Made by a program: the position numbers and the translations under genes
NCBI GenBank assembly: GCA_019912425.1
Contig: JAIOIU010000029.1
Location: forward strand, 1 to 64,000
DNA: 64,000 nucleotides
DNA from: Candidatus Methylomirabilis tolerans
GTDB taxonomy: Bacteria; Methylomirabilota; Methylomirabilia; Methylomirabilales; Methylomirabilaceae
Direction: 5' to 3'
Shown here: positions 680-17,790 of the stretch, in pieces
Position numbering within the stretch: position 1 is the stretch's first letter
Layout of the letters: the number at the start of each line of letters is the position of its first letter
Notes under the pieces: model-generated
The model's input: the letters and a program-made list of their open reading frames with translations, nothing else
Told to the model about the DNA's origin: nothing
The model's database searches: none

Positions 680-1925
680 CTTGTAGCTCCACGGCGCTGC
701 GGATCAATGGTTCCAGGCGCCGTTCATACAGGAAGTCGGCTTGCTCACGACCTCGATCCGGGAGATGGTACAGGTCGAGGTAGACTTGCAGGATGTCGCA
801 CACTGGTATCTCATCTATTCGTGCGATTCCGCCGAAGATGCTCCGCCGATGTCTGGGTTGGAGGAGCACGATTGAGGCCGCAGGATGATCGCTCGGCACC
901 AACTGCAATGCTTCCATCAGGATTGAGGGCTCCCCGGTGTAGTAGAGGTGGATCGAGCGGGCCTCTGAATGCGTGAGGCGGTACAATCGGCAGGCTTGGT
1001 GCGCCGTGAGCGCACACGGAGGGACGCGATCCGACAGATGGCGAAGACGATTCAGGAATTCATCGCGGAACGCTTCATCGGTGTGCTCGCCGAACACCGA
1101 ACGGCATGGTATGGGGTTGTTGTCACTGATGCGGTACCGTCCGCGCCATTCCCCAAGGAGGGCGTCAAGGTTGGTTAGGGCAGGGACTCTCCCCATCCGT
1201 TTGGCCAAGTACCCACTGCGCTCCATCGCGGCGGCCCATCGGTAGACCAGTGGCGGAGCTGTTGCGGAGAGTTTGGCGAGTTGGGCCAGGTTCCTGATTG
1301 CACCTCGTGGTCCACCCCACCCTTCGGCTTGCGAGCGAGCGAACAGTAAGACCTTGAGCAGCCATTGGTCAAGGTCACCAAAGGAGAGTTTTGCCGATGC
1401 GTAACTGGGCTGAGGCGACATGCGAGGCGGGCCTAAGAGTTGTCGCCCCTGCAGATCACGGACCTCTTCTTCGTCGCCACCGGGGAGATGCGCGATGAGA
1501 CTCCCATGGGCATCAGCTACCAACCACCACAGCCCGGGTGCATACAGAGTGATTTGGTCCTTGAATCGCCGCACGATCCGCAGGTCGATGGACTCAACAT
1601 AGATGGCGAGAACCGGCTCCCATCCCTTGAGACGCTGAGCTGCCTGGAGCGCAAGAATAGAATGCGCCATCCAGTGGAAGAGCCAGTCTGCCAGCTTATT
1701 TGCGACCTTCACCTCAATCGCAAAGCTCCGATGCTTCCAGCTCATCACAAGGTCAAGATGGAGGCCACGCCGAGGACCTTCCGCCTGGAGGCGCACGTCT
1801 TCCTCACGCAGCCGGAATCCTCGCTTCTTCAGAAGGTGGAGGATCCGCTGTGCCCCACGAATGGGCGCATCGTCATGGGAACCCTGTTGCTGCCATCCCT
1901 TGGATTGCGAATTATTTGCTCTCAT
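669..1925 (-). CDS. AbiEi-like antitoxin/regulator with a nuclease-fold N-terminus
   Basis: A 418-residue protein. The N-terminal third contains LDLVMSW...FAIEVK, a D-(x)n-E-x-K pattern typical of PD-(D/E)XK nuclease folds. The middle (about 195-265) resembles a winged helix. The C-terminus has YLDLYHLPDRGREQADFL, a signature of the large AbiEi-like antitoxins that are paired with nucleotidyltransferases. Role by family: binds its own promoter and neutralises the downstream nucleotidyltransferase at 140-679. I chose ATG 1925; an in-frame TTG at 1961 lies inside a probable promoter. No convincing Shine-Dalgarno sequence precedes 1925. The nuclease assignment rests on the short motif only. Confidence 0.65.
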   Translation of the reverse strand: MRANNSQSKGWQQQGSHDDAPIRGAQRILHLLKKRGFRLREEDVRLQAEGPRRGLHLDLVMSWKHRSFAIEVKVANKLADWLFHWMAHSILALQAAQRLKGWEPVLAIYVESIDLRIVRRFKDQITLYAPGLWWLVADAHGSLIAHLPGGDEEEVRDLQGRQLLGPPRMSPQPSYASAKLSFGDLDQWLLKVLLFARSQAEGWGGPRGAIRNLAQLAKLSATAPPLVYRWAAAMERSGYLAKRMGRVPALTNLDALLGEWRGRYRISDNNPIPCRSVFGEHTDEAFRDEFLNRLRHLSDRVPPCALTAHQACRLYRLTHSEARSIHLYYTGEPSILMEALQLVPSDHPAASIVLLQPRHRRSIFGGIARIDEIPVCDILQVYLDLYHLPDRGREQADFLYERRLEPLIRSAVELQDGI

Positions 1926-1980
1926 ATAACGTATAGTTATAAAATAATATCTACTTGTCAAGTATATTATAACCTGTCAA
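1926..1980 (-). promoter_or_regulatory. AT-rich promoter/operator region of the AbiEi-like gene
   Basis: Read on the minus strand this stretch has two TTGACA boxes (1980-1975 and 1961-1956), a TATAAT (1971-1966) and an inverted repeat ATAAC-GTATA-GTTAT at 1926-1940, directly before the start codon. The repeat is a plausible self-binding site, because AbiEi antitoxins repress their own operons through inverted repeats. Which box pair acts as promoter is not clear. Confidence 0.45.
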
Positions 1981-2081
1981 GTAAATATATAGCTGAAAGG
2001 AAACAGACAGCGAGATCTTTAGTCGGTGCTTAGGCCGTAGAGTCATCAAAGGTCCTACGCGTACATTTCTAGCGTAAGATC

Positions 2082-2113
2082 TGATCATTATGGTATATAT
2101 ACCATAATGATCA
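2082..2113. promoter_or_regulatory. Perfect 32-bp palindrome, probable operator
   Basis: Every base of the 32-bp sequence pairs with its mirror around the centre at 2097/2098; the half-site is TGATCATTATGGTATA. It lies 33 bp before the AbiEi-type antitoxin gene at 2147, in the gap between two divergent antitoxin-like genes. A perfect palindrome of this size and position fits an autorepressor site. It could also be a terminator-like hairpin, but neither flank has a T-tract. Confidence 0.65.
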
Positions 2114-2146
2114 AGACCACACTATTGCCTTAATCAGGGCATTGGC

Positions 2147-3004
2147 ATGACACGGCTTCCCAACTTACAAGACATCATAGCGCAGACGCCTTCACGAGTC
2201 CTCCTACCCAATCAATTCGAGTCGCTGATCAGTCAATTCCAGAGCTTACGTGAGCGATCGGTACTGGAGCCCCGCGACAAGGTAAAAGAGCAACTGCTCA
2301 AGCAAGGGTTGGTCCGTTCGGTCATCCTCAGATCGAGCTATGGCGATAAACAGCGATTCGTCCGGGGAGAAGTCTCTCCGTACCCCCTCGCGCTCTCCAT
2401 TGCACCGAACGCCTACCTTTCTCACGGCACAGCCGCATCGCTACATGGCTTAGTACCGCGAGTGAAGAATCCGATCTACGTAAACAGCGAACAATCGGCC
2501 AAGTATGTGACCGAACAGGCCCTAAGTCAGGACGCTATAGACCGGGCATTCGCCCGCCCACAGCGAGTTTCAAATTACGAATTGCGCTACTCGGCGTGGC
2601 GATTCGTGCTTCTCAGTGGAAAGTCCACTGGCCGTTTCGGTGTTGTTTGTCTTCCCTCTGGTCAAGGAGAATCCGTGGAGGTGACGGGACTTGAACGGAC
2701 GCTCGTCGATATAGTGGTCCGCCCGGTGTACGCCGGCGGAGTATCCCAGGTCCTAACCGCCTTCAAGCGCGCCAGAGATCGAGTCCGGCTTAACACGCTC
2801 ATCGATACTCTCAACTCCCTTAAATACGTCTACCCATACCATCAAGCCGTTGGGTTCTACATGGCAAAGGCGAAGTATCCAATCGCTTGGCTCAACGAGT
2901 TCCAATGTATGGGTCTCAATTACAATTTCTACCTGGCTCATGGGATGGAGCAGAAGGCTTTCGACTCACAGTGGCGGATCTTCTATCCGCCCGACCTCGT
3001 CTGA
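2147..3004 (+). CDS. AbiEi-family antitoxin / transcriptional regulator
   Basis: A 285-residue protein resembling type IV toxin-antitoxin AbiEi antitoxins: an N-terminal winged-helix-like part, a middle segment with [13 protein letters not shown] (about 99-111), and the conserved [17 protein letters not shown] stretch (about 190-206) followed by a helical C-terminus. Members bind operator palindromes and counteract a cognate nucleotidyltransferase. No such toxin follows; the next gene is a HEPN-domain protein at 3333. It starts with ATG 2147 after a weak CAGGGC site and is probably controlled through the palindrome at 2082-2113. Its base composition is lower in GC than the backbone, in keeping with transfer. 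Confidence 0.7.
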
Positions 3005-3055
3005 CCGGCGGTCAGACTTTAATTTAATTCTTTTGCGGACGACTCCGGCAGGTGT

Positions 3056-3158
3056 TAGCAGGGTGTTGAAAGACCTATTTTTCAGCTGATTGCCTGTGAT
3101 AACTAATTGATTTATCAAACCAGTAATTTCTAGATGTTGGGTTTTCAACAGTCTGCTA
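3056..3158. mobile_element. MITE-like element with terminal inverted repeats
   Basis: The ends are inverted repeats: TAGCAGGGTGTTGAAA (3056-3071) and TTTTCAACAGTCTGCTA (3142-3158). The 103-bp unit holds no gene. Short elements ending in TAGCAG...TGTTGAAA are common non-autonomous repeats in many bacteria. Flanking T/A bases would allow a TA target duplication. Confidence 0.5.
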
Positions 3159-3332
3159 GTATCAGGGGCTGTGGCAACGGGGTGCGCCGCGTAGCACAGG
3201 GGTATGGAATTTTGATGACAACATAAACTTGACTCATCTACATCGACTGAGGGCTCTTAAGCGGTCCAGCCGTAAGACCGGTTGATCGAAATCGACCAGT
3301 CAGCTTATAAGTTGGATCCGGAAGCAAAAAAG

Positions 3333-3908
3333 ATGAGATCAACGTCAGAGACCAGAAGAGAGGTTTTCGCATGGTTCGGCGCTGTCGCTTACCAGGCGCA
3401 ATGTTTTGAGGTCGAATGTAGGATATTGCTCCTGTTCATGCAAAGAGCGAAGAATCCACAAGTTACTCTCGCCGAGGTTGAAACCCTCGACGCCCGCCTG
3501 ACAGCACGTAATCTCGGTTTTCTTCTTCGCGAGTTGAAGAAAGGGATGTGGTTACATCCGGAGTTTGAGGGGCTGTTAAATCAGTACCGGGAGAAAAGGA
3601 ATTACCTAATGCACCGATTCTTCTCCGCACACTCGTTTGACTTCGCCACCGAAACGGGATGCAGGAAGATGATCTCCGAATTAACGGAATTGCACGCGAC
3701 ACTCAAGGAGGCCGATGAGATCGCCCAAGCCATGTCTAAGAAGATCAGGCAACACTTGCACTGGTCAGAGGAGAAACTGGAGGCATTCTACCGGGTCACT
3801 CTGAGACGTGAGACCGGCGTTGATCTCGACGAGGCAGAACCCAACCAAATCTTGGATGCGACTTCGGAACCCACGCCTAGCGCAGATCCCTCAGCGCATC
3901 AAGGGTGA
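3333..3908 (+). CDS. HEPN-domain protein, possible ribonuclease toxin
   Basis: A 191-residue, almost entirely helical protein. Residues 89-94 read RNYLMH, the R-x4-H motif that forms the RNase active site of HEPN domains; the surrounding YREKRNYLMHRFF fits well. HEPN proteins act as RNases in toxin-antitoxin, abortive infection and CRISPR systems. I chose ATG 3333, which has a GGAAG site 8 nt upstream, over an in-frame TTG at 3282. The C-terminal 25 residues are acidic and low in complexity. It follows an AbiEi-type antitoxin with only a MITE-like repeat between, so the two may have formed one defence or toxin unit. That pairing is inference. Confidence 0.6.
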   Translation: MRSTSETRREVFAWFGAVAYQAQCFEVECRILLLFMQRAKNPQVTLAEVETLDARLTARNLGFLLRELKKGMWLHPEFEGLLNQYREKRNYLMHRFFSAHSFDFATETGCRKMISELTELHATLKEADEIAQAMSKKIRQHLHWSEEKLEAFYRVTLRRETGVDLDEAEPNQILDATSEPTPSADPSAHQG

Positions 3909-4217
3909 CGTGCGGTACGGCGATCTTATTGACATCGCCATAAGTGTTGGAGGTGCCACGAGCAGTGACGTGAAGACTTTGTCATTATCTCCCACAACAT
4001 ACCGAAACAATTCAACCGTAAACAGTACCTCTCGGATCTTTCCCCGGCCGAATGGGACATGGCCTTCTGTTGTCCGGTCTCCCAAAACGACCAGTCCTCC
4101 AGAAAGTAAGCGGGAAAAAACATTGAGGCTAAGCGTAGCAAAGAAGGTTCCTCGCTTCCCAAATACAAAAGATTCACTGGACACCTTAAAGGCTATGTCC
4201 TTGGGGTCGCTACTCAT
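3891..4217 (-). CDS. Hypothetical small protein (doubtful)
   Basis: A 108-codon frame on the minus strand fills the gap between the HEPN gene and the interrupted gene at 4195. Its composition looks more protein-like than the Ser/Thr/Pro-rich frame opposite it, so it may be real. It has no good ribosome binding site and overlaps both neighbours by about 20 bp. I recognise no family. If it is not a gene, the stretch 3909-4194 is non-coding. Confidence 0.25.
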   Translation of the reverse strand: MSSDPKDIAFKVSSESFVFGKRGTFFATLSLNVFSRLLSGGLVVLGDRTTEGHVPFGRGKIREVLFTVELFRYVVGDNDKVFTSLLVAPPTLMAMSIRSPYRTSPLMR

Positions 4218-4881
4218 TCATTACTTTAACTGGGTCATTCGGTACGTGGCCCCGCGACCAAGGACCGTGGAAATCGAGACAACTGCATCGAATGATCCGC
4301 GTTGGCCAGCGCTGCAGCCTCAGATAGCCGGTTTTCTTGATAAAGTGCGGCGTGGCGACGACCTGAGCTCACACTTGTCTCGGCTACCACACACCCGGGG
4401 CTACACACCAAGCAAGCCAGCCATCGATCGCTGGGCCGACAAAGACTTTCTTCTAAATGTGATGGGGTACTATCACTTCCATCTTGGCACGGACACCGAA
4501 CCAAGGGGCTTCGCTACACGAACCGACGAGTTGCTATTCGCAAAGGTGTCGAGGGAGACGTTTGTTGTCGTTGGTATCTTTGATCATTCAGTTTTCGATA
4601 TGGCCCGGACTCCAGCGGATAGCATGAACCCAGAGCGTGAAAGATTGTGGCAGGTGTTCAGTGCGCGCTCTGCTCGTGGGCTTCCGCCTGGTAGCTTCTA
4701 TATTCCAGCGGCGATCACAACGTCAGGACACAATCTGCATCTGGTGGAACTCGCCCACGAGTACGCTCGCACCGTCCACACAATTGATCCAAGACTTGAT
4801 GACAAAGCATATGTGTTCGACCTGTACGATAAGGCTGGGGTACCGCGGCCAAAGAAGCCAAAGCTCACTTGGCATCAGTAG
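4195..4881 (+). pseudogene. Unknown conserved-looking gene, 5' part, cut by an IS4-family insertion
   Basis: From ATG 4195 the frame encodes about 228 residues ending in ...KPKLTWHQ and a stop that lies inside the insertion sequence. The motifs DRWADKDFLLNVMGYYHFHLG and FVVVGIFDHSVF look strongly constrained, and I have the impression of a widespread uncharacterised family, but I cannot name it. The start is uncertain: ATG 4195 has AAAGG only 2 nt upstream, and a GTG at 4246 is an alternative. The reading frame resumes after the element at 6210-6284. Removing the element and one copy of the 9-bp duplication restores an uninterrupted gene, so the disruption is recent. Confidence 0.7.
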
Positions 4882-6200
4882 TGTCCCAACGTTAACCGAA
4901 TAAATTCAATTGGTTAGCATCATCGTCCAGTGCGTCTTCGTAATCGAGAGGCGAAAGAGCCTGTAAAATGGGCGTTTTCTCGAAAAGGGTCACGCTCAAA
5001 ATCTGTAGAATTGTGTAGAGACTCCGATCCAGCGTCAGTCGTTTCTTGACGATGGCGACGAGCACATACACGGAGATCGCGATCCAGATTTGAGTCTTGA
5101 CCGCGTTCTCGGTCGTGCCATAGAACGCTTTGATCCGCAGGTGCTGCTTGATCCACTTGAAGAAGAGTTCTACCTGCCAGCGGCATTTGTACAGCTGCGC
5201 AATCACGATAGCGGGCAGGGAGAACTGGTTGGTGAGGAAGACGAGCCGCTGTTTGGTATCGGCATCGTAGTACCGGATACGCCGGAGCTTCTCGGGATAG
5301 TCTCGGTGCGAGGAGACGCCGGTAACGGTAATGATTTGATCGGCCTGCACACCGGTCGCTTTGTCGACAGGGCGGGAATACAGCCGCCTGAAGACGAGAT
5401 TGCGCTTGGCCCGCATCACGAAGTAGGCGTGCGACTGATGCACCCGGTACAGCCGGGCAAAATCCAGATAGCCCCGGTCCATGAGGTAGATGGCCCCGGC
5501 CTCGATAGCGAGGGCGTCGAGGAGCTTGACCTCGTGCCGGTTGCCGGGCGTAATGTAGATGAGCACGGGGATGTTGCCCCGCAGATCCAACAGGGTGTGG
5601 AGTTTGACCGCCGCCTTGCGCCGGCGGAACGTGGCCCAGGGAAACACCGACAAGCAGAGGTCGATGATCGTCGCATCGAGGGCATAGACCGTGTGGTCGA
5701 GGTCCACACCGAACGCCTCGTCGGCATACAGGGTTCTGGCCGTACGAATCAGCACCTGCGCGAAGTCGGCGTAGATGCGCCAGTCGCGGGTCTCGTTGGC
5801 GTGAGCCAGCGTGTTGCGGGCGACGGTGCCCCGGATCCCCATGTGATACAGCTTGGCCCTGGCGCCCCGCAGGCACGCTTCGATATCCCGGAGACTCTCC
5901 CGGTAGGTCAGTTGGGCAAAGGCCATACAGAGGAACTGGTCCCAGCAGGAAAAGCTCTTGATCTTGTAATTGCCGTGATAACGCTCGACGCATTGGCGAA
6001 ACTCGTACGTAGGGACAAAGTCCATCAGTTGGGCAAAGACCGTTCTCCCGATATGCATCGGCCACCTCCTTCCGCAGTGTGGCGGAAGTATGGCCGGTTG
6101 GAGCAAAGAATTTCAAATCGAAAAATGGCATTGTGGGATACAAGCTCAGCGTTATCAGGATGTTAACGTACGTTCCGTATTCAACGTTGGGACACTACTG
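4876..6200 (-). mobile_element. Complete IS4-family insertion sequence with target duplication
   Basis: The 1,325-bp element is bounded by perfect 18-bp inverted repeats, CAGTAGTGTCCCAACGTT at 4876-4893 and its complement at 6183-6200. It is flanked by identical 9-bp direct repeats ACTTGGCAT at 4867-4875 and 6201-6209, the target site duplication. It carries one transposase gene. The intact ends, intact transposase and intact duplication indicate recent transposition into the unknown gene at 4195. Confidence 0.93.
4892..6058 (-). CDS. IS4-family transposase
   Basis: A 388-residue DDE transposase of the IS4 family that cuts and rejoins the element's ends. The N-terminal part reads GRTVFAQLMDFVPTYEFRQC and continues through SFSCWDQFLCMAFAQLTYRESLRDIE. 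The catalytic pieces are visible: YALDATIIDL (first Asp, about 143-152), IYLMDRGYLD (second Asp) and the Y-(2)-R-(3)-E-(6)-K box in YKCRWQVELFFKWIKQ, characteristic of IS4. ATG 6058 was chosen because AGGAGG lies 6-11 nt upstream; a longer frame to 6106 lacks such a site. The stop codon lies within the inverted repeat. The gene appears intact. Confidence 0.93.
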   Translation of the reverse strand: MHIGRTVFAQLMDFVPTYEFRQCVERYHGNYKIKSFSCWDQFLCMAFAQLTYRESLRDIEACLRGARAKLYHMGIRGTVARNTLAHANETRDWRIYADFAQVLIRTARTLYADEAFGVDLDHTVYALDATIIDLCLSVFPWATFRRRKAAVKLHTLLDLRGNIPVLIYITPGNRHEVKLLDALAIEAGAIYLMDRGYLDFARLYRVHQSHAYFVMRAKRNLVFRRLYSRPVDKATGVQADQIITVTGVSSHRDYPEKLRRIRYYDADTKQRLVFLTNQFSLPAIVIAQLYKCRWQVELFFKWIKQHLRIKAFYGTTENAVKTQIWIAISVYVLVAIVKKRLTLDRSLYTILQILSVTLFEKTPILQALSPLDYEDALDDDANQLNLFG

Positions 6201-7104: not shown

Positions 7105-7132
7105 TTGACGCGAAGCATGAAACTGTTAAGAT
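7105..7132 (+). promoter_or_regulatory. Promoter of the 7139-13077 operon, possibly leaderless
   Basis: TTGACG (7105-7110), a 16-bp spacer and TAAGAT (7127-7132) form a good sigma-70-type promoter. The ATG at 7139 begins only 7 nt after the -10 box, so transcription would start at or next to the start codon and the message would be leaderless; no Shine-Dalgarno sequence is present. Confidence 0.55.
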
Positions 7133-7138
7133 ACGCGC

Positions 7139-7987
7139 ATGTTTATAGGCCTGGATGATTTTGTGCCCCAGCAACCAAGCAAAGCAGAAGCGCAGCTTAA
7201 GGAGCAAGCGCAACCCATTCATGATGTTGCAGTTGCTCTTTCCAACTTGCAATTTGCCTATCCAGGACGGCCTCAACTGCTGGAAATCGGGGATATGGAA
7301 GTTCAGTCTGGCAGTACGGTTTCAATTCTCGGTCCATCGGGCTGTGGCAAGACAACCCTCCTTTTTCTCGTTGCTGGATTCTTAACACCAAGAGCAGGAA
7401 AGGTTTCTCTTTTTGGCAAAACTCCTAACGAAGTAAGAGGCGCAGGCTACTTAGGCATAGTGTTCCAGAACCCCACCCTGCTCCCCTGGCGCACCGTCGT
7501 AGCCAACATAGGGCTGCCATTCCAACTTCGCCAATTACCCATCGATACTGATGCGGTGATAGATGCTCTCAGTCTCGTCGGACTTGAGAACTGGGCCGAT
7601 GCCTATCCCGACGAACTTAGTGGAGGTATGCAAAGCCGGGTAGCTCTAGCACGAGCCCTGGCAACGCGCCCGCGCCTCTTGCTTTTGGACGAAGCATTTG
7701 GCAACCTAGACGAGTTCCATCGTCTTAAACTTAATCTCGCACTCTCAGAAATCCAAAGAGCGTTAAAGATGACTGTTCTCTTCGTCACTCATAATGTCCA
7801 CGACGCCGTATTGATTTCTGACAGAATCCTAGTTTTGCAGCCACCGAATAGTGATGGGGGACCAACTATGATCTACGAAGATATCAGAATCGATTTCGCT
7901 AACAAGACCGTGGATTCTATATCGACAACCGCGTTTCAAGCTCTTTACCAGCGGCTTCTATCAAAATTTCGAGCTGGCGTTCTATAA
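7139..7987 (+). CDS. ABC transporter ATPase, NMT1/taurine/nitrate type
   Basis: A 282-residue ATP-binding subunit that powers the importer made with the next two genes. Walker A GPSGCGKTT (about 64-72), Q-loop VFQNPTLLPW, signature LSGGMQSR, Walker B LLLLDEAFGNLD and switch His in FVTHN are all intact. The LPW after the Q-loop and the short length match the SsuB/TauB/ThiZ group, which serves organic sulfur, nitrate or thiamine-precursor uptake. It has an unusual N-terminal extension of about 30 residues and a longer C-terminal tail (about 225-282). It is followed after 2 bp by the binding protein. The substrate cannot be read from sequence. Confidence 0.88.
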   Translation: MFIGLDDFVPQQPSKAEAQLKEQAQPIHDVAVALSNLQFAYPGRPQLLEIGDMEVQSGSTVSILGPSGCGKTTLLFLVAGFLTPRAGKVSLFGKTPNEVRGAGYLGIVFQNPTLLPWRTVVANIGLPFQLRQLPIDTDAVIDALSLVGLENWADAYPDELSGGMQSRVALARALATRPRLLLLDEAFGNLDEFHRLKLNLALSEIQRALKMTVLFVTHNVHDAVLISDRILVLQPPNSDGGPTMIYEDIRIDFANKTVDSISTTAFQALYQRLLSKFRAGVL

Positions 7988-7989
7988 TC

Positions 7990-9000
7990 ATGATCAACAA
8001 AAGAACTCTTTTAATCAGCGCTGTGATGTTTACGCTAATCGGGATATCGGCGGCGTGGTGGCTAACAACGGCCAAAACGCCATCGGCTAGACTGGAAAAA
8101 CTATCACTTCGGCTCCAATGGTTACACCAAGCCCAATTCGCCGGTTTTTATGTCGCGAAAGAGAAAGGATTTTACCGTGAGGCTGGCCTCGATGTGGCGA
8201 TTCAACCGGGAGGACAAGATTTTAACGCAGTTACCCTAGTTTCTAGTGGTTCCGATGATGTCGGCGTCTGGACCGCGGATCAGGTTCTATTGGCATATGC
8301 TCGCGGTGTTCCTATTCGTGCGGTGGGTGTCGTTTTCGATCGAAGTCTCACCGCCTTCATGGTCAAACAAACCTCAACGATTCGGACCCCTAAGGATTTT
8401 GAAGGAAAGACGGTCGGCATGTACTATGGTTACGACTCCGAGACTATCTATCTTGCCCTCTTGAAGCGGTTTAATGTTGATCGGAATAAGATTCGCGAAA
8501 CGGCGCTACAGTATGATCTATCGCGCTTCTTCAATGGCGACGTTGACGTCTGGCCTGCATATGTTATTAACCAGCCACTGGCAGCACAGGCGGCTGGCGT
8601 TGAGGTGCGCTTATTAAAGCCAGATGATCTCGGTATTCGTTACTATTCTGATACAATAATCATTACAGAAAAAACTCTCCACGAGAGAAGGGATACAGTC
8701 ACTCGCTTTCTTTCGGCCAGCGAACGCGGCTGGCGTTATGCCCTCGACCATCGAGATGAAGCCACTGACATAGTGTTGAAGCAAGATCCACACCTAAACC
8801 GCGCTCACCAGCGACAGATGCTGGATGTGACGGCGCAGTATCTCAGGCCGAGAGGAGCCCAGTTCGGAATGGATCGAGGTGTTTGGGAATCTATCATCTC
8901 ACTTCTGCGAGAGCAGAAGCTACTGCACGGCAACGTCAACGTGGACAAGCTGGTAGACTTTAAACTGCCTGAAGACGCTCATGCCAAAATTTCTGACTAA
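7990..9000 (+). CDS. NMT1/THI5-like periplasmic substrate-binding protein
   Basis: A 336-residue binding protein. A single hydrophobic segment (about 7-27) anchors or exports it. LRLQWLHQAQFAGFYVAKEKGFYREAGLDV (about 40-69) is the hallmark of the NMT1/ThiY family, whose known members bind thiamine-pyrimidine precursors; relatives bind nitrate, sulfonates or riboflavin. GSDDVGVWTADQVLLA and GKTVGMYYG are typical later motifs. It is the second gene of the operon, and its end overlaps the permease start by 20 bp. There is no lipobox, so it is either secreted or held by the uncleaved segment. Confidence 0.85.
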   Translation: MINKRTLLISAVMFTLIGISAAWWLTTAKTPSARLEKLSLRLQWLHQAQFAGFYVAKEKGFYREAGLDVAIQPGGQDFNAVTLVSSGSDDVGVWTADQVLLAYARGVPIRAVGVVFDRSLTAFMVKQTSTIRTPKDFEGKTVGMYYGYDSETIYLALLKRFNVDRNKIRETALQYDLSRFFNGDVDVWPAYVINQPLAAQAAGVEVRLLKPDDLGIRYYSDTIIITEKTLHERRDTVTRFLSASERGWRYALDHRDEATDIVLKQDPHLNRAHQRQMLDVTAQYLRPRGAQFGMDRGVWESIISLLREQKLLHGNVNVDKLVDFKLPEDAHAKISD

Positions 9001-9736
9001 CATCACTCTTGTTCTCTCGCCAATCGGGATCTGGGCCCTGCTGGCAACAATGCTCCCACGTTATCTTTTTCCCTCTCCGCTCCAAGTCATGCAGACGTTT
9101 TTGACGTCGTGGGAGATTCTTATACTTGATGCGACAATAACATTAACCGAGTCACTTGGTGGCCTCGTTGTCGCGCTTTGCATATCATTCCTCGCATCAG
9201 TAATGTTTTATTTTAACCCTAGCCTAGAAAGGCTCGGCATGCCTTATGCGATCGCCATTAAGTCGATTCCTGTTGTGGCGATGGCCCCCCTTCTTGTTCT
9301 CTGGTTTGGGAATGGTATGGTGGGTAAGGTTGTACTCGCAGCACTTATTTGTTTCTTTCCGCTGCTCGTCGGTTTATCCGATGGTTTCAAATCATTGCCG
9401 CGCGAATTGCGATATCTCGCAGCGGTCTGGAGCCAGGACAGAGGACCCACGTTTCGGTTGCTAAGCTTGCCCTTCTCTGTACCCTATTTGTTCTCTGCGC
9501 TAAAAGTTGCAGCTCCCCTTGCGACTGTTGGTGCCGTTGTGGCGGAATTCTCCGGTGCTGATAGGGGCTTGGGACACGCCATATTAATTGCTGCCTATCG
9601 CGCTGATGCAGAATTGCTGTTTGCTGGTATCATAGGCGCGTCGTTGATTGGGCTCGGCTTGTTCGCGATAGTAGGTTGTTTAGAAACACGCTTCCTTCGA
9701 AAAATGAGGATAGGCCGCGTCAGTGGAACCTTTTAG
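8981..9736 (+). CDS. ABC transporter permease, SsuC/TauC/ThiX type
   Basis: A 251-residue integral membrane subunit with about six helices. The EAA-type loop is present as KSLPRELRYLAAVWSQDRGPTFRLLSLPFSVPYLFSALK (in part residues 145-184), where the ATPase docks, followed by AAPLATVGAVVAEF, typical of this importer class. ATG 8981 overlaps the binding-protein gene by 20 bp, and its own end overlaps the next gene by 14 bp, so the five genes 7139-13077 form one translationally coupled unit. Confidence 0.87.
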   Translation: MPKFLTNITLVLSPIGIWALLATMLPRYLFPSPLQVMQTFLTSWEILILDATITLTESLGGLVVALCISFLASVMFYFNPSLERLGMPYAIAIKSIPVVAMAPLLVLWFGNGMVGKVVLAALICFFPLLVGLSDGFKSLPRELRYLAAVWSQDRGPTFRLLSLPFSVPYLFSALKVAAPLATVGAVVAEFSGADRGLGHAILIAAYRADAELLFAGIIGASLIGLGLFAIVGCLETRFLRKMRIGRVSGTF

Positions 9737-12146
9737 GCACAACATCGACTGCATAAAGGCAATGTCCGAGTTCCTTCTCGCCCAGCAGGATACTAATGAG
9801 AGTCTTTGGGGCGAAAGCATTCAGGACAGTTGGGGGGGGCATCGCGTTTATTCACTTTGGACAACAGCAGACATCATAAGGTCGTTGATATTGGTGGTGG
9901 AACTAACAGGGGAAGAAGTCACGCTCCAAAACCTTTACAACACGATTATCGACCAATGTCGAAAGGCTGAGCAGAAGATCATCAAGATCCGAGAGAGTAT
10001 CAAGAGTTACGGTGACAATCAGAGGAGCCGTGATATCCGCTATCTTGAGGGGTCTTCGGAGGCATCTGACTCGCTCCAAAAACTGGAGGAGATACTTCGG
10101 GAAAGCCAGGGTTATTATGGCCTGCCACGCTCAGTGATGAACGTTGTGGGAGGGGAAACGAAGCCGCCTCCTTCGGGTCCAACAAATCTCATTGCAAGCT
10201 GCCTAATTTACCAAGCACTCTTGAGACTACACAAAGTGATCGACCAGAGGAACGGGGTACAATGTCCTTCACCGGAAACCCACACGAAGATAAAAGAATT
10301 CGCCTTATACCTAGCGAGGCCGGAATGCAGTCTGCTTAGACGAGCGACTAGCGAAGTCAATGATCTTATCGCTATTCAATCAGAGAAGCAGGAGCACGCT
10401 TTAGAAGAGTTGAGGAAAGCATACGAGCGGCGGCGTACTCAATGGCCACGTGCTGAAAGGCTATGCCAGTTCCCATCAATCGACGCTGATAAAGCCTTCG
10501 TCAGGAATATCTCTGGTTGGGTACAACGTCTTACCGATAATCCGGGTGCCTTGTGGATGGACGATCAAGAGCATGCAGGATGGACTCTGGTGCCGTTCCA
10601 GCCGCGCGCTGGAATTGATCCAATCTCGACTCTCGTTGCGCTCCAATCTCTGGCGGACTCCTCCGAGCAGTTCGAAGGAGAAGAACGGGATCGGCTTTTG
10701 GATGCGTTTGAAAAGGGATTGAAGTGGTTGGAGGGCTTCATAAGCCTGGGATTCAAAAGCCCCAACTGGATCACAGCAGTTAAAGAGGATGAGAACTTAT
10801 CTCAACGCTGGCCCCTGGATCTGCTTTCCAGATTCGTTTTATGGCTTAGCGGACTCTTGCGTGACATTCCGAGTGCACCCAGCAGTGAGTGGAGCGAATT
10901 TAGGAGCAGATTAGCAGTGCTAAAAGACATAATGTACACATCACTTTTGGTCAGAGTCTTTCGTGTCACAGTCGAGGAGCAATCCAAGCCGTTTGAACCG
11001 GTTCCGGTTGCCCTATTTTCTGGTTATGAAATTTCCCACTGGCCAGGTGTTGATACCGGATTTGTAGCCTTCGCCCTTCTGTCGGGTCGCTCCGGATATG
11101 AGTGGGAGCGGTGCGGGAAAGAGTACCGAGAACTCAGCCGTTATAGATCAAAGATTTTCGAACCACATGCGTCTTCAGGGGGCGACTTGCCGATCGACCT
11201 ACCTCTATTTGCGTCAGTGATCCGGATGGTCAAACGCCAGATCGTTGGGAGCCATAACGAAGAAATTCTTAAAAGTAAACTTGAACTATCTAATCCCAGC
11301 CTTCAGGACGCCGAAGTCAACCTGAAGGGCGCTTTCCTGGCAAGTACAGGCTTGATGCTAGGAGCACCACCAACTCCCAGTGTATATCTCTGGGGAACAG
11401 CCCATAGTCTTTCGGCAATTGTTGCTTGGACCAAAGGCGTTGGCAAGAATGGTGCAGAAGCGCGTAGTAGAGAATTAGAGGCAAATATAAGAGTATTAGA
11501 GGCAGACAAAAGAGCACTGGCCAACGAGCTTGACATACATCGTGTCTACAGTGGCCTGCAGATGAATCGTGGCCTCTTCGTCGGTACACTATGTGCCATC
11601 ATCCTGGGCCTGTTTCCGTGGATCCTGATGGAACGAGAGACGAAACAATTTTCCGACATTGATGTTCCTCTGCTCTGGTGGATACCAGTGTTTTTGTGGT
11701 TTTTTTGGCTCCTCCTGATACTAAGAACTCGCGCTGCACAAATTGTGAGGTGGGCAGACGTAAAGCCATATGAGTCTTCCTTAAAAATGGCCTTGCTTGT
11801 GCCGAGTATTTCGATGCTCTTAGGCTTAGGACTATGTAGCGGAGGCGCCGTCCTTTCTTTTTTCCTCCCAGCAGCTATGTCTGCTGCGCAATTCCTCCCA
11901 ACTACATCATACGGTTGGGTTGCCCCCTGGACGGTAATCTCGACTTGGTCGTTTTTAATCTTATTTCTTTACCTCGGTTATTTTCTTTTTGGTCCCAAAC
12001 CGGCCAAGAAGGTGCTTGTAAAGGACAATTGGCTAACCCTGGGCCGCGTCATGGTCCAGCTTCTCTTTTGTGGTTTTCCTTGGAAGCCTGTCTCGACCGA
12101 CGATCTCGAACACACCAAAAAGTTGATTGAGGATTTTGTTGATTGA
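9723..12146 (+). CDS. Large unknown protein: helical-toroid-like N-terminus, coiled coil, four membrane helices
   Basis: An 807-residue protein of no family I recognise. The N-terminal half has repeated motifs such as QQDTNESLWGE...VYSLWTTADIIRSLI (about 19-60), GPTNLIASCLIYQALLRL and WTLVPFQPRAGIDPISTLVALQSL, whose spacing recalls the alpha/alpha barrels of terpene cyclases or prenyltransferases, but no catalytic DxDD is seen. A coiled coil (about 575-605) precedes four hydrophobic segments (about 617-635, 645-665, 685-710, 725-750), so it should sit in the inner membrane facing the cytoplasm. GTG 9723 overlaps the permease; ATG 9762 is an alternative start. It belongs to the transporter operon. 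Confidence 0.75.
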   Translation: MEPFRHNIDCIKAMSEFLLAQQDTNESLWGESIQDSWGGHRVYSLWTTADIIRSLILVVELTGEEVTLQNLYNTIIDQCRKAEQKIIKIRESIKSYGDNQRSRDIRYLEGSSEASDSLQKLEEILRESQGYYGLPRSVMNVVGGETKPPPSGPTNLIASCLIYQALLRLHKVIDQRNGVQCPSPETHTKIKEFALYLARPECSLLRRATSEVNDLIAIQSEKQEHALEELRKAYERRRTQWPRAERLCQFPSIDADKAFVRNISGWVQRLTDNPGALWMDDQEHAGWTLVPFQPRAGIDPISTLVALQSLADSSEQFEGEERDRLLDAFEKGLKWLEGFISLGFKSPNWITAVKEDENLSQRWPLDLLSRFVLWLSGLLRDIPSAPSSEWSEFRSRLAVLKDIMYTSLLVRVFRVTVEEQSKPFEPVPVALFSGYEISHWPGVDTGFVAFALLSGRSGYEWERCGKEYRELSRYRSKIFEPHASSGGDLPIDLPLFASVIRMVKRQIVGSHNEEILKSKLELSNPSLQDAEVNLKGAFLASTGLMLGAPPTPSVYLWGTAHSLSAIVAWTKGVGKNGAEARSRELEANIRVLEADKRALANELDIHRVYSGLQMNRGLFVGTLCAIILGLFPWILMERETKQFSDIDVPLLWWIPVFLWFFWLLLILRTRAAQIVRWADVKPYESSLKMALLVPSISMLLGLGLCSGGAVLSFFLPAAMSAAQFLPTTSYGWVAPWTVISTWSFLILFLYLGYFLFGPKPAKKVLVKDNWLTLGRVMVQLLFCGFPWKPVSTDDLEHTKKLIEDFVD

Positions 12147-12165
12147 GGGCGGCAAGATAGTCAAC

Positions 12166-13077
12166 ATGCTCGATCTCGATTTTAGCCAGTTCGAAGAAGC
12201 TACGTATTGCGAGACCGAACCTCTTCGCATTTTTGTTCAGTCGTTAAGCTACCACGTAGTCGGCGCACGATTTTTTTCCAAGCAAATAAGCCACCTCAAG
12301 CCCCCACCTAAATGGCGCCTCCTCGACGTGGGCTGTGGAGATGGTCAGTTCACGACAACCCTTCTCGACGAACTCAGAAAAATAAAGCTTGTGCCAGATC
12401 GGATTGAAGGTGTAGATCCGGACAGAGAAAACCTGCGATACTTCGAAAAACGGTTGAGTCAATTTCCCGACATATCACTGGAATGCAAGAAGGGCAAGGT
12501 GGAGACATTGGGTAATGACCGCTCGTTCATTATTGTGGCCTCGCACTCGCTATACGGATTTCTTGAAAATCCCCAGCATACCGAAGAGTTCAAAGATGAG
12601 AAGCTGCTCTTCTTAGCCCGCTTAGCAAAGGATGGCGGAGCAGTGATGATTTCCCTTGCAAGTAGAACCAGTCCCGCTTACGAGTACAAGCGCCGAGTGT
12701 TGCAAACTTATCGCGGCGTTGACAGGTCAATCTTTGGCGAAGATGTAATTGATCGAATGGTCCGATTAAAGCTCTCGGGACGCGTGGCCATTCGAAATAG
12801 CTATATGGATGTTACCGATTTGCTGAAAGGTGACGATACAACGCTCCTCGATTGGACGCGCTATTTTTGTCGTCTCACCGCTAGTCAGGCGCTTTGTATC
12901 AGACCTGCACGATTACGATCGATCATGGCAGAGTTAGCCTCAAAATTCTCCAGCTTGCCACGTCTTCTGGCTCGCGCTTACTCTTTAGCACCCGCAGCAA
13001 CGAGACCTCCGACTCCTGATTCACTTGTGCTCCCGCATAAAGAGTGCTTCATCGTCATCCCGGCGATGAGGAATTAG
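12166..13077 (+). CDS. SAM-dependent methyltransferase, class I
   Basis: A 303-residue protein. WRLLDVGCGDGQFTTTLL (about 51-68) is motif I of class I methyltransferases, with the GxGxG-type SAM loop; IEGVDPDRENLRYF supplies the acidic residue that holds the ribose. The later motifs are weak, and the substrate is unknown. I chose ATG 12166; TTG codons at 12127 and 12136 overlap the preceding stop and are possible. It is the last gene of the transporter operon, suggesting that the transported compound or a product of it is methylated, which is inference. No hairpin terminator follows. Confidence 0.75.
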   Translation: MLDLDFSQFEEATYCETEPLRIFVQSLSYHVVGARFFSKQISHLKPPPKWRLLDVGCGDGQFTTTLLDELRKIKLVPDRIEGVDPDRENLRYFEKRLSQFPDISLECKKGKVETLGNDRSFIIVASHSLYGFLENPQHTEEFKDEKLLFLARLAKDGGAVMISLASRTSPAYEYKRRVLQTYRGVDRSIFGEDVIDRMVRLKLSGRVAIRNSYMDVTDLLKGDDTTLLDWTRYFCRLTASQALCIRPARLRSIMAELASKFSSLPRLLARAYSLAPAATRPPTPDSLVLPHKECFIVIPAMRN

Positions 13078-13094
13078 GATATCAAGACTTCATC

Positions 13095-13570
13095 TGACAA
13101 ACAATTGATCCTCACCGAGCTACGCTGCCAACATTTTCCCCTTCGCCAGGACATGCTATCCAGAAAGGTCTGCATCGGCGTCTTGCCGTAGTACCAGCGG
13201 CCTTGGTGCAGGGCGCTCGCTGTGCTCGTGCGGCCAGGCATCGACATCGGCCTGCAGTTCCTCGATCATGCGGTAAATCTTCTTGCGGAACGCGATCCGG
13301 TGGAACTCATTGAGTATGGTCTTGTGGAAGCGCTCGCAGGTGCCGTTGGTTGCCCGTCTGGGATTTTACAGAACTAAGTGCCCGATCCGTGAGGATGCGG
13401 TTGGTTGAGCGATACCCCCTGCGCCTCAAAGAACGGGAGCACCCGCTCATTGAGCGGATCGGCCGCAGTGATTAGCGTCTTGCAATCACACAGCTTCGCC
13501 ACGCTGACCTTGTTCTAAATGTCGATGAGGGTCTGCTGAATGTGCGCTGAAGCGCCAGACGTGATGGTTC
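13095..13570 (-). pseudogene. IS481-type transposase remnant (integrase core)
   Basis: Minus-strand translation in shifting frames gives NKVSVAKLCDCKTLITAADPLNERVLPFFE, then NRILTDRALSS, then TNGTCERFHKTILNEFHRIAF, and finally ALHQGRWYYGKTPMQTFLDS. These are consecutive pieces of the rve integrase core and C-terminus of IS481-family transposases. There are at least two frameshifts, a stop, and a deletion around 13370. No functional gene remains. Confidence 0.7.
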
Positions 13571-13690
13571 AAAACATATGCTATTTGGTTGCGCGGGGGT
13601 TGCATTTTTAGGCCTTATGGCGCCGTTTTGTGCCGCATTCTGCACAGCTAACTGTCGGAATTTGTTGAATCGTCAAGATCGTGTCCAGAA

Positions 13691-13735
13691 CTTTTAAGCA
13701 GGGAGTCCCGGGTTCGAGTCCCGGACGGGTCACCA
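13691..13735 (+). other. tRNA-Lys(UUU)-like 3' fragment, candidate attachment site
   Basis: The sequence reads as the 3' part of a tRNA: anticodon loop CTTTTAA (13691-13697, anticodon TTT), a 5-bp T-stem CCGGG/CCCGG around the loop TTCGAGT (13708-13724), an acceptor strand ACGGGTC, A and CCA ending at 13735. The bases before 13691 cannot form the matching anticodon stem, D-arm or acceptor strand, so it is not a complete tRNA. Tyrosine integrases often recombine at the anticodon loop and leave such fragments at the end of an island. Confidence 0.6.
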
Positions 13736-13880
13736 CTCCATTTCCTATCTGTTTGAAAACGCTGACCGCTGGGAGCCAGATGGTAAGCATCAGGGACTCC
13801 TATCCTATCGCTGCTCTTGGGATAAGCGAGCGCCTGGGTAGAGACCGATGCATCCAGGATGATTATCGCTCAACAGACGG

Positions 13881-14603
13881 TCAATACGAGGCAGTAGGGC
13901 CGGGGTCGGGGATGCCGGCTTCGGCGAAGCCTTTCTCCCGCAGGATGCAACTGTCACAGGCGCGGCACGGCTGTCCGTCCGGAGTCGGGTCGTAGCAGCT
14001 CCAGGTGAGTCGGAAGTCGACCCCAAGGGCAGCGCCTCGCCGGATGATCTCGGCCTTAGTCAAGCGGATCAGCGGGGTGTGGATGGTCAGCTTGGACCCG
14101 CCTTCAACGCCGGCCTGGGTCGCCAGATTCGCCATCTGCTCGAAGGCCGCGATGAATTCCGGCCGACAATCCGGGTACCCGCTATAGTCGATCGCGTTGA
14201 CCCCAAGCACGATGGTTCCAGAACCGATCACCTCCGCCCAAGCCAGCGCATAAGAAAGAAAGATGGTGTTACGGGCGGGGACGTAGGTGATGGGGATACC
14301 GGCCCCGATCTCCTCCAACTCGCGGCCCTTCGGTACCGGAATGTCAGCGGTCAGGGCCGAACCGCCAATCTGCCGAAGGCCGAGGTCAAGGATCAGGTGC
14401 TGGACGGCACCGAGAGCGGCCGCAATCCTTTTCGCGCTCTCCACCTCGCGCGCATGACGCTGGCCGTAGCGAAAGGTGAGAGCGTGCAGTTCGTACGCAT
14501 CGGCCTTTGCCATCGCGGCCGCCGTTGCGGAGTCGAGCCCACCGCTCAGCAGGACGACAGCCCGCTTGCCTGCCTGTGCGTAATCGCACGCAGACAGGTT
14601 CAC
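13881..14603 (-). CDS. queC: 7-cyano-7-deazaguanine synthase QueC
   Basis: A 240-residue ATP-dependent enzyme that turns 7-carboxy-7-deazaguanine into preQ0 in queuosine synthesis. [17 protein letters not shown] is the PP-loop that binds ATP, and four cysteines near the C-terminus (CYDP...CRACDSC) form the zinc site. I chose GTG 14603: it has GAGGAG just upstream and overlaps the queE stop (TAGTG), whereas an upstream GTG at 14630 lies within queE. The first dozen codons after the start are made of a 30-bp palindromic repeat (14569-14598), so the N-terminal residues [11 protein letters not shown] are repeat-encoded. It is cotranscribed with queE. Confidence 0.95.
14569..14598. repeat. CCTGCCTGTGCG palindromic repeat, copy 1 (inside queC)
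   Basis: CCTGCCTGTGCG, TAAT, CGCACGCAGACAGG: an imperfect inverted repeat lying in the first codons of queC. Nearly the same sequence occurs at 45196-45222 (trmFO), and looser copies at 40329-40356 (D,D-carboxypeptidase) and 50936-50993 (TPR gene). Confidence 0.75.
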
Positions 14604-15244
14604 TACACTCCTCGCCGATTCGGATCCCACAGGTACTTATGAAGCTGGATCTGGAGTCTGGCGTCCAGTCGATCAGCCAGGATCCATTCCGCCAGCATCC
14701 CAGGGTGCAATTCACCAAATACCGGGGAGAAGAGAACCTGGGTCTTTTCAGCCAGAGCGTGTTCCGCCATCACGTGCTTGGCCCACTCGTAGTCCTGGCG
14801 ATCCGCGACAACGAACTTGATCTGGTCCTTTCTATCGAGATACCGGAGGTTATCAAGATTGTTGCATGGGTCCATCTCGCTTCCCGGGGCCTTGAGGTCT
14901 AGGATCTTGACCACCATGGGGTCGAGGCGATCAACGCTGAGGCTTCCCCCTGTTTCAATCAGGACTTCGTACCCCTCAAGGAGCAAGCTACCAGTCAGAG
15001 GATACACCTCTTCCTGTAGCAGCGGCTCCCCCCCGGTGATCTCAATCAGCGGACACTTGTAGGCCCGCACCTGTTCGAGCACCTGCTCGACTGAGCGTCG
15101 TTCGCCCCCGTGGTACGCATAGGTCGTGTCGCACCACCGGCACCGAAGGTTACACCCGGTCAGGCGGACAAAAACACATGGCCGACCGGCATAGGTCGAT
15201 TCCCCCTGGATGCTATAGAATATCTCGTTTACGCGGAGGCTCAC
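14603..15244 (-). CDS. queE: 7-carboxy-7-deazaguanine synthase QueE (radical SAM)
   Basis: A 213-residue radical SAM enzyme that converts 6-carboxytetrahydropterin to 7-carboxy-7-deazaguanine, the step before Que[27 protein letters not shown] leads into C-NLR-C-RW-C (about 31-38), the iron-sulfur cysteines in the CxxxCxxC spacing, and ITGGEPLLQ binds SAM. The start is GTG 15244. The gene ends one base into queC. Neither queD nor folE is in the window, so the pathway must be completed elsewhere. Confidence 0.95.
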
Positions 15245-15255
15245 AACTGCTACGC

Positions 15256-16743
15256 CTACCCCTCGGACCCGATGATCACATACCGTGTCCCACCGTCCCG
15301 CTTGATCAGAAGAAGAGTCGGTTCGTCCGGCTTGGTTTTCTCCAAGACTCGTCTGACCTGGTTTGCTGTCGTTACCCGTACCCGGTTGATCTCCAGGATC
15401 AGGTCTCCGGGTTGCAACCCGGCCGCGTCACCAGGACTATCAGGTTCGACCTCCGTGATCACAATCCCTTTCTCACCCTTCAGTCCGAACTTGTGGGAGA
15501 GCGCCGGATTGAGTTCCTGAATATCGATCCCCAGCTTCGTTTTCGGAGAGGACGACGTCATGGCTACCACCTGCTCCTCTTTAAGCTCACCAATCTTGAC
15601 ATGCAGCGTAAGTTCGGCCCCGTCGCGAATAACTTTCATGGGGACCTCTTTTCCCACCGGGGTGCTGGCCACGATGTGCGGCAACTCAGTGGAGAACTTG
15701 ACTGTCTTGCTATTAAACTCCACGATGACATCCCCCTGCTTGACTCCCGCCTGTTCGGCCGGCGATCCCTCCATGACATCCGACACCAGGGCGCCATTTG
15801 TCTGCTTGAGGGAGAATTTCTTGCCCAAGTCAGGGGTAATCGGCTGAATCGCTACGCCAAGCCATCCTCTGGTGACCTGTCCACGGTCTTTCAACTGCGG
15901 CAAAACCTCCTTAATCATTGCGATAGGAATCGCAAAGCCGATTCCGATCGAACCGCCTGTAGGGCTCAGGATGGCGGTGTTCACCCCCACCGCCTCACCG
16001 TTCGCGTTGATCAGCGGTCCACCGCTGTTACCCCGATTAATAGAGGCATCGGTCTGGATAAAGTTGTCATACGGGCCTTCTCCGATGAACCGGCCTTTGG
16101 CGCTGACAATGCCAGTGGTGACCGTCTGGTTCAGACCGAATGGATTACCGATCGCCATGACCGGCTCGCCGACCTCCAGTTTATCCGAGTCGCCGAACGG
16201 GATAACAGGCAGATTGGAGGCCTCAATTTTAATGAGGGCAATATCAGTCTTTGGGTCTCTCCCGATTACCTTGGCCTTGAACTCCCGACTATCTCCAAGC
16301 TTTACAGTAATGTCCGTAGCATTCTCAACGACGTGGTTATTTGTCAGGATATAGCCATCTTTGTTGATAATGAATCCGGAACCAAGACTGGTCGCCTTGA
16401 ACTGCCGCGGGCTCTCACCGAAGTACCGTTTAAAGAACTCGTTGAAGGGGTCGTCCTCACCGAAAGGGCCGCGAGACGGGACGCCCCTTCCCTTGACCAC
16501 CTGAGTGGTGCTGATATTCGCCACAGCGGGAGTCAGCTCCTTCGCCAACCGAACCCAGAGCTTCCCGTCTGAGATCTGACTTGTACTAAATACTCCACTC
16601 TCCCGTTTTTCAGTCCAAAATCCCGCAGTCGTCGCCTTTGAGAGTGGAACAAGATTCAAGGAGGCCGTGACCAACACTCCAAGAATCAAACAGGACGCTG
16701 CCACTGCTATTAAGGTTCTGCCGTTAAACCGTCCATTACGCAT
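15256..16743 (-). CDS. degP: DegP/HtrA-type periplasmic serine protease (Do family)
   Basis: A 495-residue envelope protease and chaperone. The N-terminal hydrophobic segment (about 10-32) is a signal anchor or signal peptide. The catalytic triad is visible as NNHVVENATDI (His), DPKTDIALIKI (Asp) and RGNSGGPLINANGEAVG (Ser). Two PDZ domains follow, with carboxylate-binding loops RGWLGVAIQ and KLGIDIQEL. ATG 16743 has GGGGG 6 nt upstream; an ATG at 16791 in the same frame has a weaker site. It lies 11 bp from queE but is an unrelated function. MucD and DegQ are the close alternatives for naming. Confidence 0.93.
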   Translation of the reverse strand: MRNGRFNGRTLIAVAASCLILGVLVTASLNLVPLSKATTAGFWTEKRESGVFSTSQISDGKLWVRLAKELTPAVANISTTQVVKGRGVPSRGPFGEDDPFNEFFKRYFGESPRQFKATSLGSGFIINKDGYILTNNHVVENATDITVKLGDSREFKAKVIGRDPKTDIALIKIEASNLPVIPFGDSDKLEVGEPVMAIGNPFGLNQTVTTGIVSAKGRFIGEGPYDNFIQTDASINRGNSGGPLINANGEAVGVNTAILSPTGGSIGIGFAIPIAMIKEVLPQLKDRGQVTRGWLGVAIQPITPDLGKKFSLKQTNGALVSDVMEGSPAEQAGVKQGDVIVEFNSKTVKFSTELPHIVASTPVGKEVPMKVIRDGAELTLHVKIGELKEEQVVAMTSSSPKTKLGIDIQELNPALSHKFGLKGEKGIVITEVEPDSPGDAAGLQPGDLILEINRVRVTTANQVRRVLEKTKPDEPTLLLIKRDGGTRYVIIGSEG

Positions 16744-16956
16744 CGTATCCCCCTGCAATGCTGTCGCCTTAGTCCGTTCCCTGTTCGACATGCCCCGATT
16801 CGTATGGTTATGACATGACGGTAAGCGGGGACGTTTAGCAAAAACTTTCCACGGTCGGCCACGCCGCTCACGGTCTTTATTGGTCTAAGCTTAGCAGACT
16901 CATCGCGTAAATTCAACATACCCCCCTGTTCCAGGAAGACGCTTGAGGACGGCGAC

Positions 16957-16985
16957 TTGACGCAGGTTCCGGTGTGGCCTACACT
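16957..16985 (+). promoter_or_regulatory. Promoter of the DUF3386-like gene
   Basis: TTGACG (16957-16962), a 17-bp spacer and TACACT (16980-16985). Transcription would begin about 55-60 nt before the ATG at 17050. It faces away from the protease gene. Confidence 0.6.
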
Positions 16986-17049
16986 GCATGCGGCGAAATG
17001 TTCTCAGTCCTGTGGAGACTACGTGCTCTTAGAGAGGAGAACGGAACTC

Positions 17050-17790
17050 ATGAAAAGACGGTCACGGTGGATCCCAAGCCTGCTGTTCGCTATCCTTCTT
17101 CTCGTCTTTGCAGGTAATCCCCTCGAAGCCCAGGAGGTTCACGACGATCCTGATGCCCGTGCCCTCCTGGAGGGGGCCCGCCAGCATCTCGTCGTGTGGG
17201 ACCGCTTTCCGGGCTTTAAGGCAACACTAGAGGTAGACCGGGATGGAAAACGATCGGGTGGTGAACTGACGGTCCTCCCTTCCGGAAAGGTGGAAGTTGA
17301 GCTTCAAGACCGGGAAGCGGCAGAATGGGCCAGCGGGATACTGAAGTCGATCGTCAACCATAGACTGAAGATGGACACACACAAGCATGAGGAGGCGCCG
17401 GTTGCCTTCGGCCCTGAGGATCAGCATCCACTGGGACGCATGGTGAAGAAAGGCGACCGATCCTCATCGACGTACCGCATCAAGGGTCAACAGATCCTCC
17501 AGGTCAACCAGAGGATAGAAAAAGGATGGTTGAGCCTCAACGTCTTAGAGTACGTCCAGACGCTTCAAGGCTTCTTGTCCAAGCGGGTGGCCATCTTTCA
17601 GTTCGACGAAAAGGGTTCGCTTGTAAAAAGCACCGTCTTTACCGATGAGTACGTCGAGGTAGAGAGGCTCTGGCTTCCCAAGTCCCGCATGATCATCTCC
17701 GCCCAAGGGGGAAAGATCGGGGTTTCAACACTTCAGTTTCAAGAGCACCGCCTGCTCCCGAAAGAAGCAGCCAAGGCCCCGGCTCCCTGA
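17050..17790 (+). CDS. Exported DUF3386-like protein
   Basis: A 246-residue protein with a signal peptide (MKRRSRWIPSLLFAILLLVF..., cleavage near EAQ, about residue 30). The mature part begins ALLEGARQHLVVWDRFPGFKATLEV, matching my memory of DUF3386, a family of unknown function first noted in cyanobacteria; the rest is predicted mainly beta strand. ATG 17050 has GAGAGGAGAAC upstream. It stands alone with its own promoter and no operon partner. No catalytic motif is visible. Confidence 0.65.
   Translation: MKRRSRWIPSLLFAILLLVFAGNPLEAQEVHDDPDARALLEGARQHLVVWDRFPGFKATLEVDRDGKRSGGELTVLPSGKVEVELQDREAAEWASGILKSIVNHRLKMDTHKHEEAPVAFGPEDQHPLGRMVKKGDRSSSTYRIKGQQILQVNQRIEKGWLSLNVLEYVQTLQGFLSKRVAIFQFDEKGSLVKSTVFTDEYVEVERLWLPKSRMIISAQGGKIGVSTLQFQEHRLLPKEAAKAPAP

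Follow-up and report, generated by a model that had tools for sequence, protein, structure and literature searches.

We found that a five-gene operon of Candidatus Methylomirabilis tolerans, which joins the genes of an ABC importer to those of a large orphan membrane protein and a methyltransferase, is cargo of an integrase-driven genomic island at a tRNA-Lys gene. The operon lies in the 64,000-nucleotide stretch analysed here (contig JAIOIU010000029.1, positions 1 to 64,000; hereafter the window), and no known system of such make-up was found, in agreement with the first-pass annotation of the same DNA. On sequence grounds the operon may represent an accessory unit of a new kind and might act against phages, defence being suggested by genomic context only. 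Our preferred reading, which we hold tentatively, is that of an accessory membrane unit in which a membrane effector and a methyltransferase are coupled to an importer of small molecules, the whole travelling as cargo of the tRNA-Lys island.

The operon spans positions 7139-13077 of the window and consists of five intact open reading frames on the forward strand, separated by a 2-bp gap or overlapping: an ABC ATPase (7139-7987), an NMT1/ThiY-type binding protein (7990-9000), a single permease (8981-9736), an 807-residue protein (9723-12146) and a class I SAM methyltransferase (12127-13077). The genes are thus packed as one transcription unit, and the operon proposed earlier is real. The five frames are alike in composition, with GC values of 0.492-0.499; the operon as a whole has a GC of 0.497, against 0.584 in the rest of the window, and the GC3 of its genes is 0.46-0.53, against 0.65-0.75 in the flanking core genes. 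A promoter-like site with an extended -10 element, TTGACG-16-TAAGAT (7105-7132, forward strand, 9 of 12 matches), has its predicted start at or adjoining the ATG at 7139. It ends six bases 5' of that codon and is compatible with a leaderless start; the first-pass annotation had proposed a leaderless promoter of the operon's own, and the position of this candidate fits, but sites of equal quality were no commoner than chance (4 found, 5.3 expected from shuffles).

The genus was searched with window positions 13100-17000. A second genome of the same species (G099) matched the window at 100% from position 13691 onward only, and there an intact tRNA-Lys(TTT) gene directly abuts a 3.5-kb stretch that is identical to window positions 13691-17206, which constitutes the uninterrupted site. 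In the window itself, positions 13691-13738 (forward strand) hold only the 3' part of tRNA-Lys(TTT), the attR; over its 48 bp this fragment is 94% identical to an intact tRNA-Lys carried by another contig (C57) of the same genome. That contig carries the G099 upstream flank at 99.9% over 5.5 kb, then the intact tRNA-Lys, and then foreign DNA; its first gene, for a tyrosine integrase, overlaps the end of the tRNA gene, and next come genes for an HTH protein and a serine recombinase. The tRNA fragment, the G099 site and the C57 flank therefore identify the window as the right arm of a tRNA-Lys island whose left arm is on C57; from the matching ends we infer that C57, with the attL, is linked to the window contig. 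All the features of a tRNA-targeted island are present, namely a partial tRNA at one end, an intact tRNA at the other, an uninterrupted site in a relative and an adjoining integrase; the minimum length of the island is about 19 kb. The low GC of the operon is explained by its being cargo of this island. The first-pass annotation had described a low-GC island among toxin-antitoxin genes; the low GC and the antitoxin-like genes were borne out, but that annotation had not recognised the region as the right arm of a tRNA-Lys island. On the left arm, a serine recombinase and a resolvase-like fragment lie near the integrase (L071, 8073-10886).

Across other species of the genus, tRNA-Lys and the next core gene, which is queC-like, lie at variable distances from each other, so that tRNA-Lys looks like an insertion hotspot. 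The DNA between the two genes (L061-L070) varies in both length and content, and includes a gene for an FRG-domain protein in L061 and an integrase-like ORF in L068. On the window arm, the operon is preceded by an NTP_transf_8 nucleotidyltransferase (140-679, reverse strand; Pfam, 1.8e-14), an AbiEi-like protein (2147-3004, forward; PADLOC AbiEi, 1.8e-16, with Pfam AbiEi_1 slightly under its cut-off), a PD-T4-7-like protein (3808-4881, forward; PADLOC PD-T4-7, 4.3e-9, no NCBIfam match), the true start of which is probably after 3908, and, to the left of the operon, an insertion sequence with a DDE_Tnp_1 transposase (4892-6106, reverse; Pfam DUF4372, 3e-35, and DDE_Tnp_1, 4.5e-32). The stretch 140-4881, with its NTP_transf_8, AbiEi-like and PD-T4-7-like genes and two further ORFs that belong to no family, is possibly a separate defence cluster. 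These neighbours support the view of a defence-rich island; they do not prove the operon's own role.

The first three genes encode all components of a type I ABC importer with an NMT1-type binding protein, each matched in Pfam as the first-pass annotation had predicted: the 282-residue ATPase (ABC_tran, 9.3e-29), the 336-residue NMT1/THI5-type substrate-binding protein with an N-terminal signal or anchor helix (NMT1, 2e-56) and the 251-residue permease (BPD_transp_1, 2.5e-21). In NCBIfam the ATPase matched importer ATPases of the nitrate, taurine and sulfonate type, every one under its cut-off, and the curated cut-offs for ThiXYZ (thiamine/pyrimidine), taurine and sulfonate transporters were all missed by far. 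The closest solved chains to the binding protein are 4nmy (3e-32) and 3ix1, an FAMP-binding protein (9e-19), both alignable across its length. Since the binding protein thus belongs to the THI5/ThiY-type fold family, its ligand is likely, by homology, to be a small heteroaromatic compound. A pattern scan of genomes recovered relatives of the binding protein at only 21-36% identity. Most of the binding protein's relatives are in metabolic operons or next to sensor-type proteins.

These relationships make nutritional salvage the strongest alternative, one that we regard as possible and somewhat less probable than our preferred reading: the importer would take up a pyrimidine, a thiamine-related or another heteroaromatic compound, the membrane protein and the methyltransferase would convert it, and the island would be carrying ordinary metabolic cargo. 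The transporter is complete, its binding protein is closest, among solved structures, to THI5/ThiY-type proteins, and on plasmids, relatives occur alongside genes of nucleoside or pyrimidine catabolism; the plasmid-borne relatives of binding protein and permease that were examined were in metabolic operons. However, the operon includes no recognisable catabolic or thiamine gene, the 807-residue protein belongs to no enzyme family, and the neighbours on the island arm are a transposase and genes of defence type or without assignment.

The 807-residue protein (9723-12146, forward strand) has about 570 residues without membrane helices, a short coiled coil at about 577-607 and four C-terminal membrane helices predicted by hydropathy (about 618-636, 648-666, 687-705 and 738-756), all within the last 190 residues; the coiled coil and the four helices agree with the earlier description. 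Judged by loop charges and the positive-inside rule, the C-terminus would be cytosolic, as would the coiled coil and the long region that precedes it. No match was obtained in Pfam, NCBIfam, PADLOC, PHROG or the PDB, the best being a sub-threshold DUF4164 at 577-607, and no relative was detected in 99 relatives, in 251, 17 and 77 genomes of three other phyla or in 388 wider-spread relatives, these sets being partly overlapping. Two weak matches of the large proteins of this operon and of its sister-species parallel (see below) were rejected as chance, one in G403 (16.7 bits, with internal stops) and one in G066 (a membrane segment of a permease). Searches of plasmids and phages by tblastn with this protein and the methyltransferase yielded no match, and pattern scans of genome and viral contigs, which reach close relatives only, were likewise empty. 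We therefore call the protein an orphan within the searches made, in genome samples that are small against all known genomes. Of the two observations that would have spoken against the first-pass annotation, neither was made: no occurrence of the 807-residue protein or the methyltransferase outside this genome came to light in these searches, and neither matched a family of defined role. That annotation had also ascribed to the 807-residue protein cyclase-like helical repeats and a helical toroid, and here it gained no support. Two single-sequence AlphaFold2 models had mean pLDDT values of 39.8 and 37.2, a block-wise test for internal repeats gave 130 against a shuffled mean of 143, that is, below the shuffles, and no Pfam or NCBIfam profile of the prenyltransferase or squalene-cyclase type was matched. 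The toroid is unproven rather than excluded, as models of this quality are too poor to decide, and the name 'helical toroid' should not be used until homologues permit a proper prediction.

The 316-residue methyltransferase (12127-13077, forward strand) was correctly recognised in the first-pass annotation: Pfam Methyltransf_25 scored 28.7 bits against a cut-off of 27, and motif I is present as LLDVGCGDG. Its start may be an ATG near 12167 instead. No other copy was found in 95 genomes of its own phylum or in 291 genomes of another phylum. A possible resemblance to histamine N-methyltransferases was given no support by a PDB search. The gene also bears on a second and distinctly less probable alternative, a non-defensive sensory unit in which the binding protein and transporter would report a ligand to the membrane protein while methylation tuned its sensitivity, loosely as in chemoreceptor adaptation. 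Several close relatives of the binding protein are indeed directly upstream of, or within, long sensor-type proteins, but the methyltransferase has no match to CheR in Pfam or NCBIfam, the 807-residue protein contains no recognised output domain, and a full importer would be unnecessary for sensing.

A search with the binding protein as query uncovered a parallel operon in a sister species (G009, contig C23; L107, 6793-15023). It encodes an ATPase, a permease and a binding protein followed, after 11 bp, by a 648-residue orphan and a cupin; farther on, past the cupin, lies a gene for an N6/N4 DNA methyltransferase. Like the window operon, it has importer genes upstream of an orphan membrane protein, and a methyltransferase-like domain is present; unlike it, the gene order is different, the membrane part of the orphan is N-terminal (two helices, read from the sequence) and the methyltransferase-like region is fused to its C-terminus, where SAM methyltransferase motif I and a weak match to PrmC/PrmA (E 0.001-0.01) were detected. 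The 648-residue protein had one real match in 370 genomes; plasmids, viral contigs and the PDB yielded no match. The two transporters are mutually closest by identity (36% in the concatenated set) and form, together with one other locus, a group with support values of 94/96 in the tree; a clade made up of the two alone withstood rejection (p-AU 0.337) but is not established. The two large proteins have no detectable similarity and could not be aligned, and the methyltransferases share nothing beyond motif I, so the parallel rests on gene content. The first-pass annotation, made from the window letters, could not have seen this parallel. We scanned 60 NMT1-type loci with all three transporter genes for same-strand ORFs, up to 4.5 kb away, that contain methyltransferase motif I; the scan, which can miss methyltransferases, detected such an ORF in just two, those of the window and G009, and this rarity also argues against salvage.

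A third, looser case of the pattern is a cluster in Kordiimonas (L020, 7878-11630), which encodes a binding protein, a 405-residue orphan with membrane helices that matched no family, an ATPase and a permease, and adjoins a conjugation-type ATPase gene. It shares with the window operon a single-permease NMT1 importer, an orphan membrane protein inside the operon and a mobile-looking contig, but differs in having no methyltransferase, a different orphan and a transporter placed elsewhere in the tree. A chance assembly, in which unrelated and possibly decaying genes were gathered in the island and are co-transcribed by accident, would suit a region rich in mobile elements and two proteins that lack homologues elsewhere in our searches, but it is the least probable of the alternatives, given five intact overlapping frames of matching GC and a similar gene set in the sister species.

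We consider a defensive or signalling role more likely than a nutritional one; the signal and effector reading is favoured because of the island setting, the large proteins that differ between species and the lack of metabolic genes. The accessory unit that we propose would be centred on the membrane: besides a complete single-permease NMT1-type importer and a SAM methyltransferase, it would comprise the 807-residue protein, held in the membrane by its four helices while its large domain faces the cytosol. The binding protein would capture a small, probably heteroaromatic compound, and the cytosolic domain of the 807-residue protein could sense either the uptake of that compound or a failure of uptake under envelope disturbance, such as a phage might cause. 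The methyltransferase might then modify either the compound or the 807-residue protein, keeping the latter in a resting state or freeing it from one, and the freed four-helix domain would harm the membrane or stop growth. The tight overlaps, the island ends, the defence-type genes on the island arm, the parallel operon in G009 and the Kordiimonas cluster count in favour of such a unit; the mostly metabolic or sensor-adjacent relatives of the binding protein, and the absence of a PADLOC model for the 807-residue protein, count against it. That both large proteins are orphans is a pattern compatible with fast-evolving conflict genes. A broader and more doubtful extension would place the operon in a new class of membrane units for defence or signalling, which couple a nutrient-type ABC importer with a methyltransferase and with an orphan membrane effector that is interchangeable and differs between related species.

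The binding protein, permease and ATPase families are common to known NMT1/THI5-type importers such as ThiXYZ and those like SsuABC and TauABC; the window importer falls far under every NCBIfam cut-off for these, and its downstream partners are an orphan membrane protein and a methyltransferase, not metabolic genes. The open-licence papers searched contained no description of an importer, a membrane effector and methylation combined on mobile islands, and a limited sample of the literature on prokaryotic conflict systems included no mention of NMT1 or ABC transporters. If the coupling is real, mobile islands would carry a link between nutrient-type ABC importers, membrane effectors and methylation, and the two orphan proteins would gain a clue to their function; if salvage is all that the operon serves, it would still illustrate cleanly how an importer operon with uncharacterised partners can reside on a tRNA island. 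Membership of the methylation-associated defence system MADS was considered, as the PADLOC models mad2 and mad3 matched the window methyltransferase and ATPase, respectively, and was rejected: NCBIfam MAD2 gave the methyltransferase 10 bits against a cut-off of 720, and in a control run for mad3 ordinary metabolic importer ATPases scored higher than the window ATPase, the match being generic. Ordinary ABC importer ATPases match the mad3 model (PDLC04135) at 94-110 bits, so that this model alone gives false positives.
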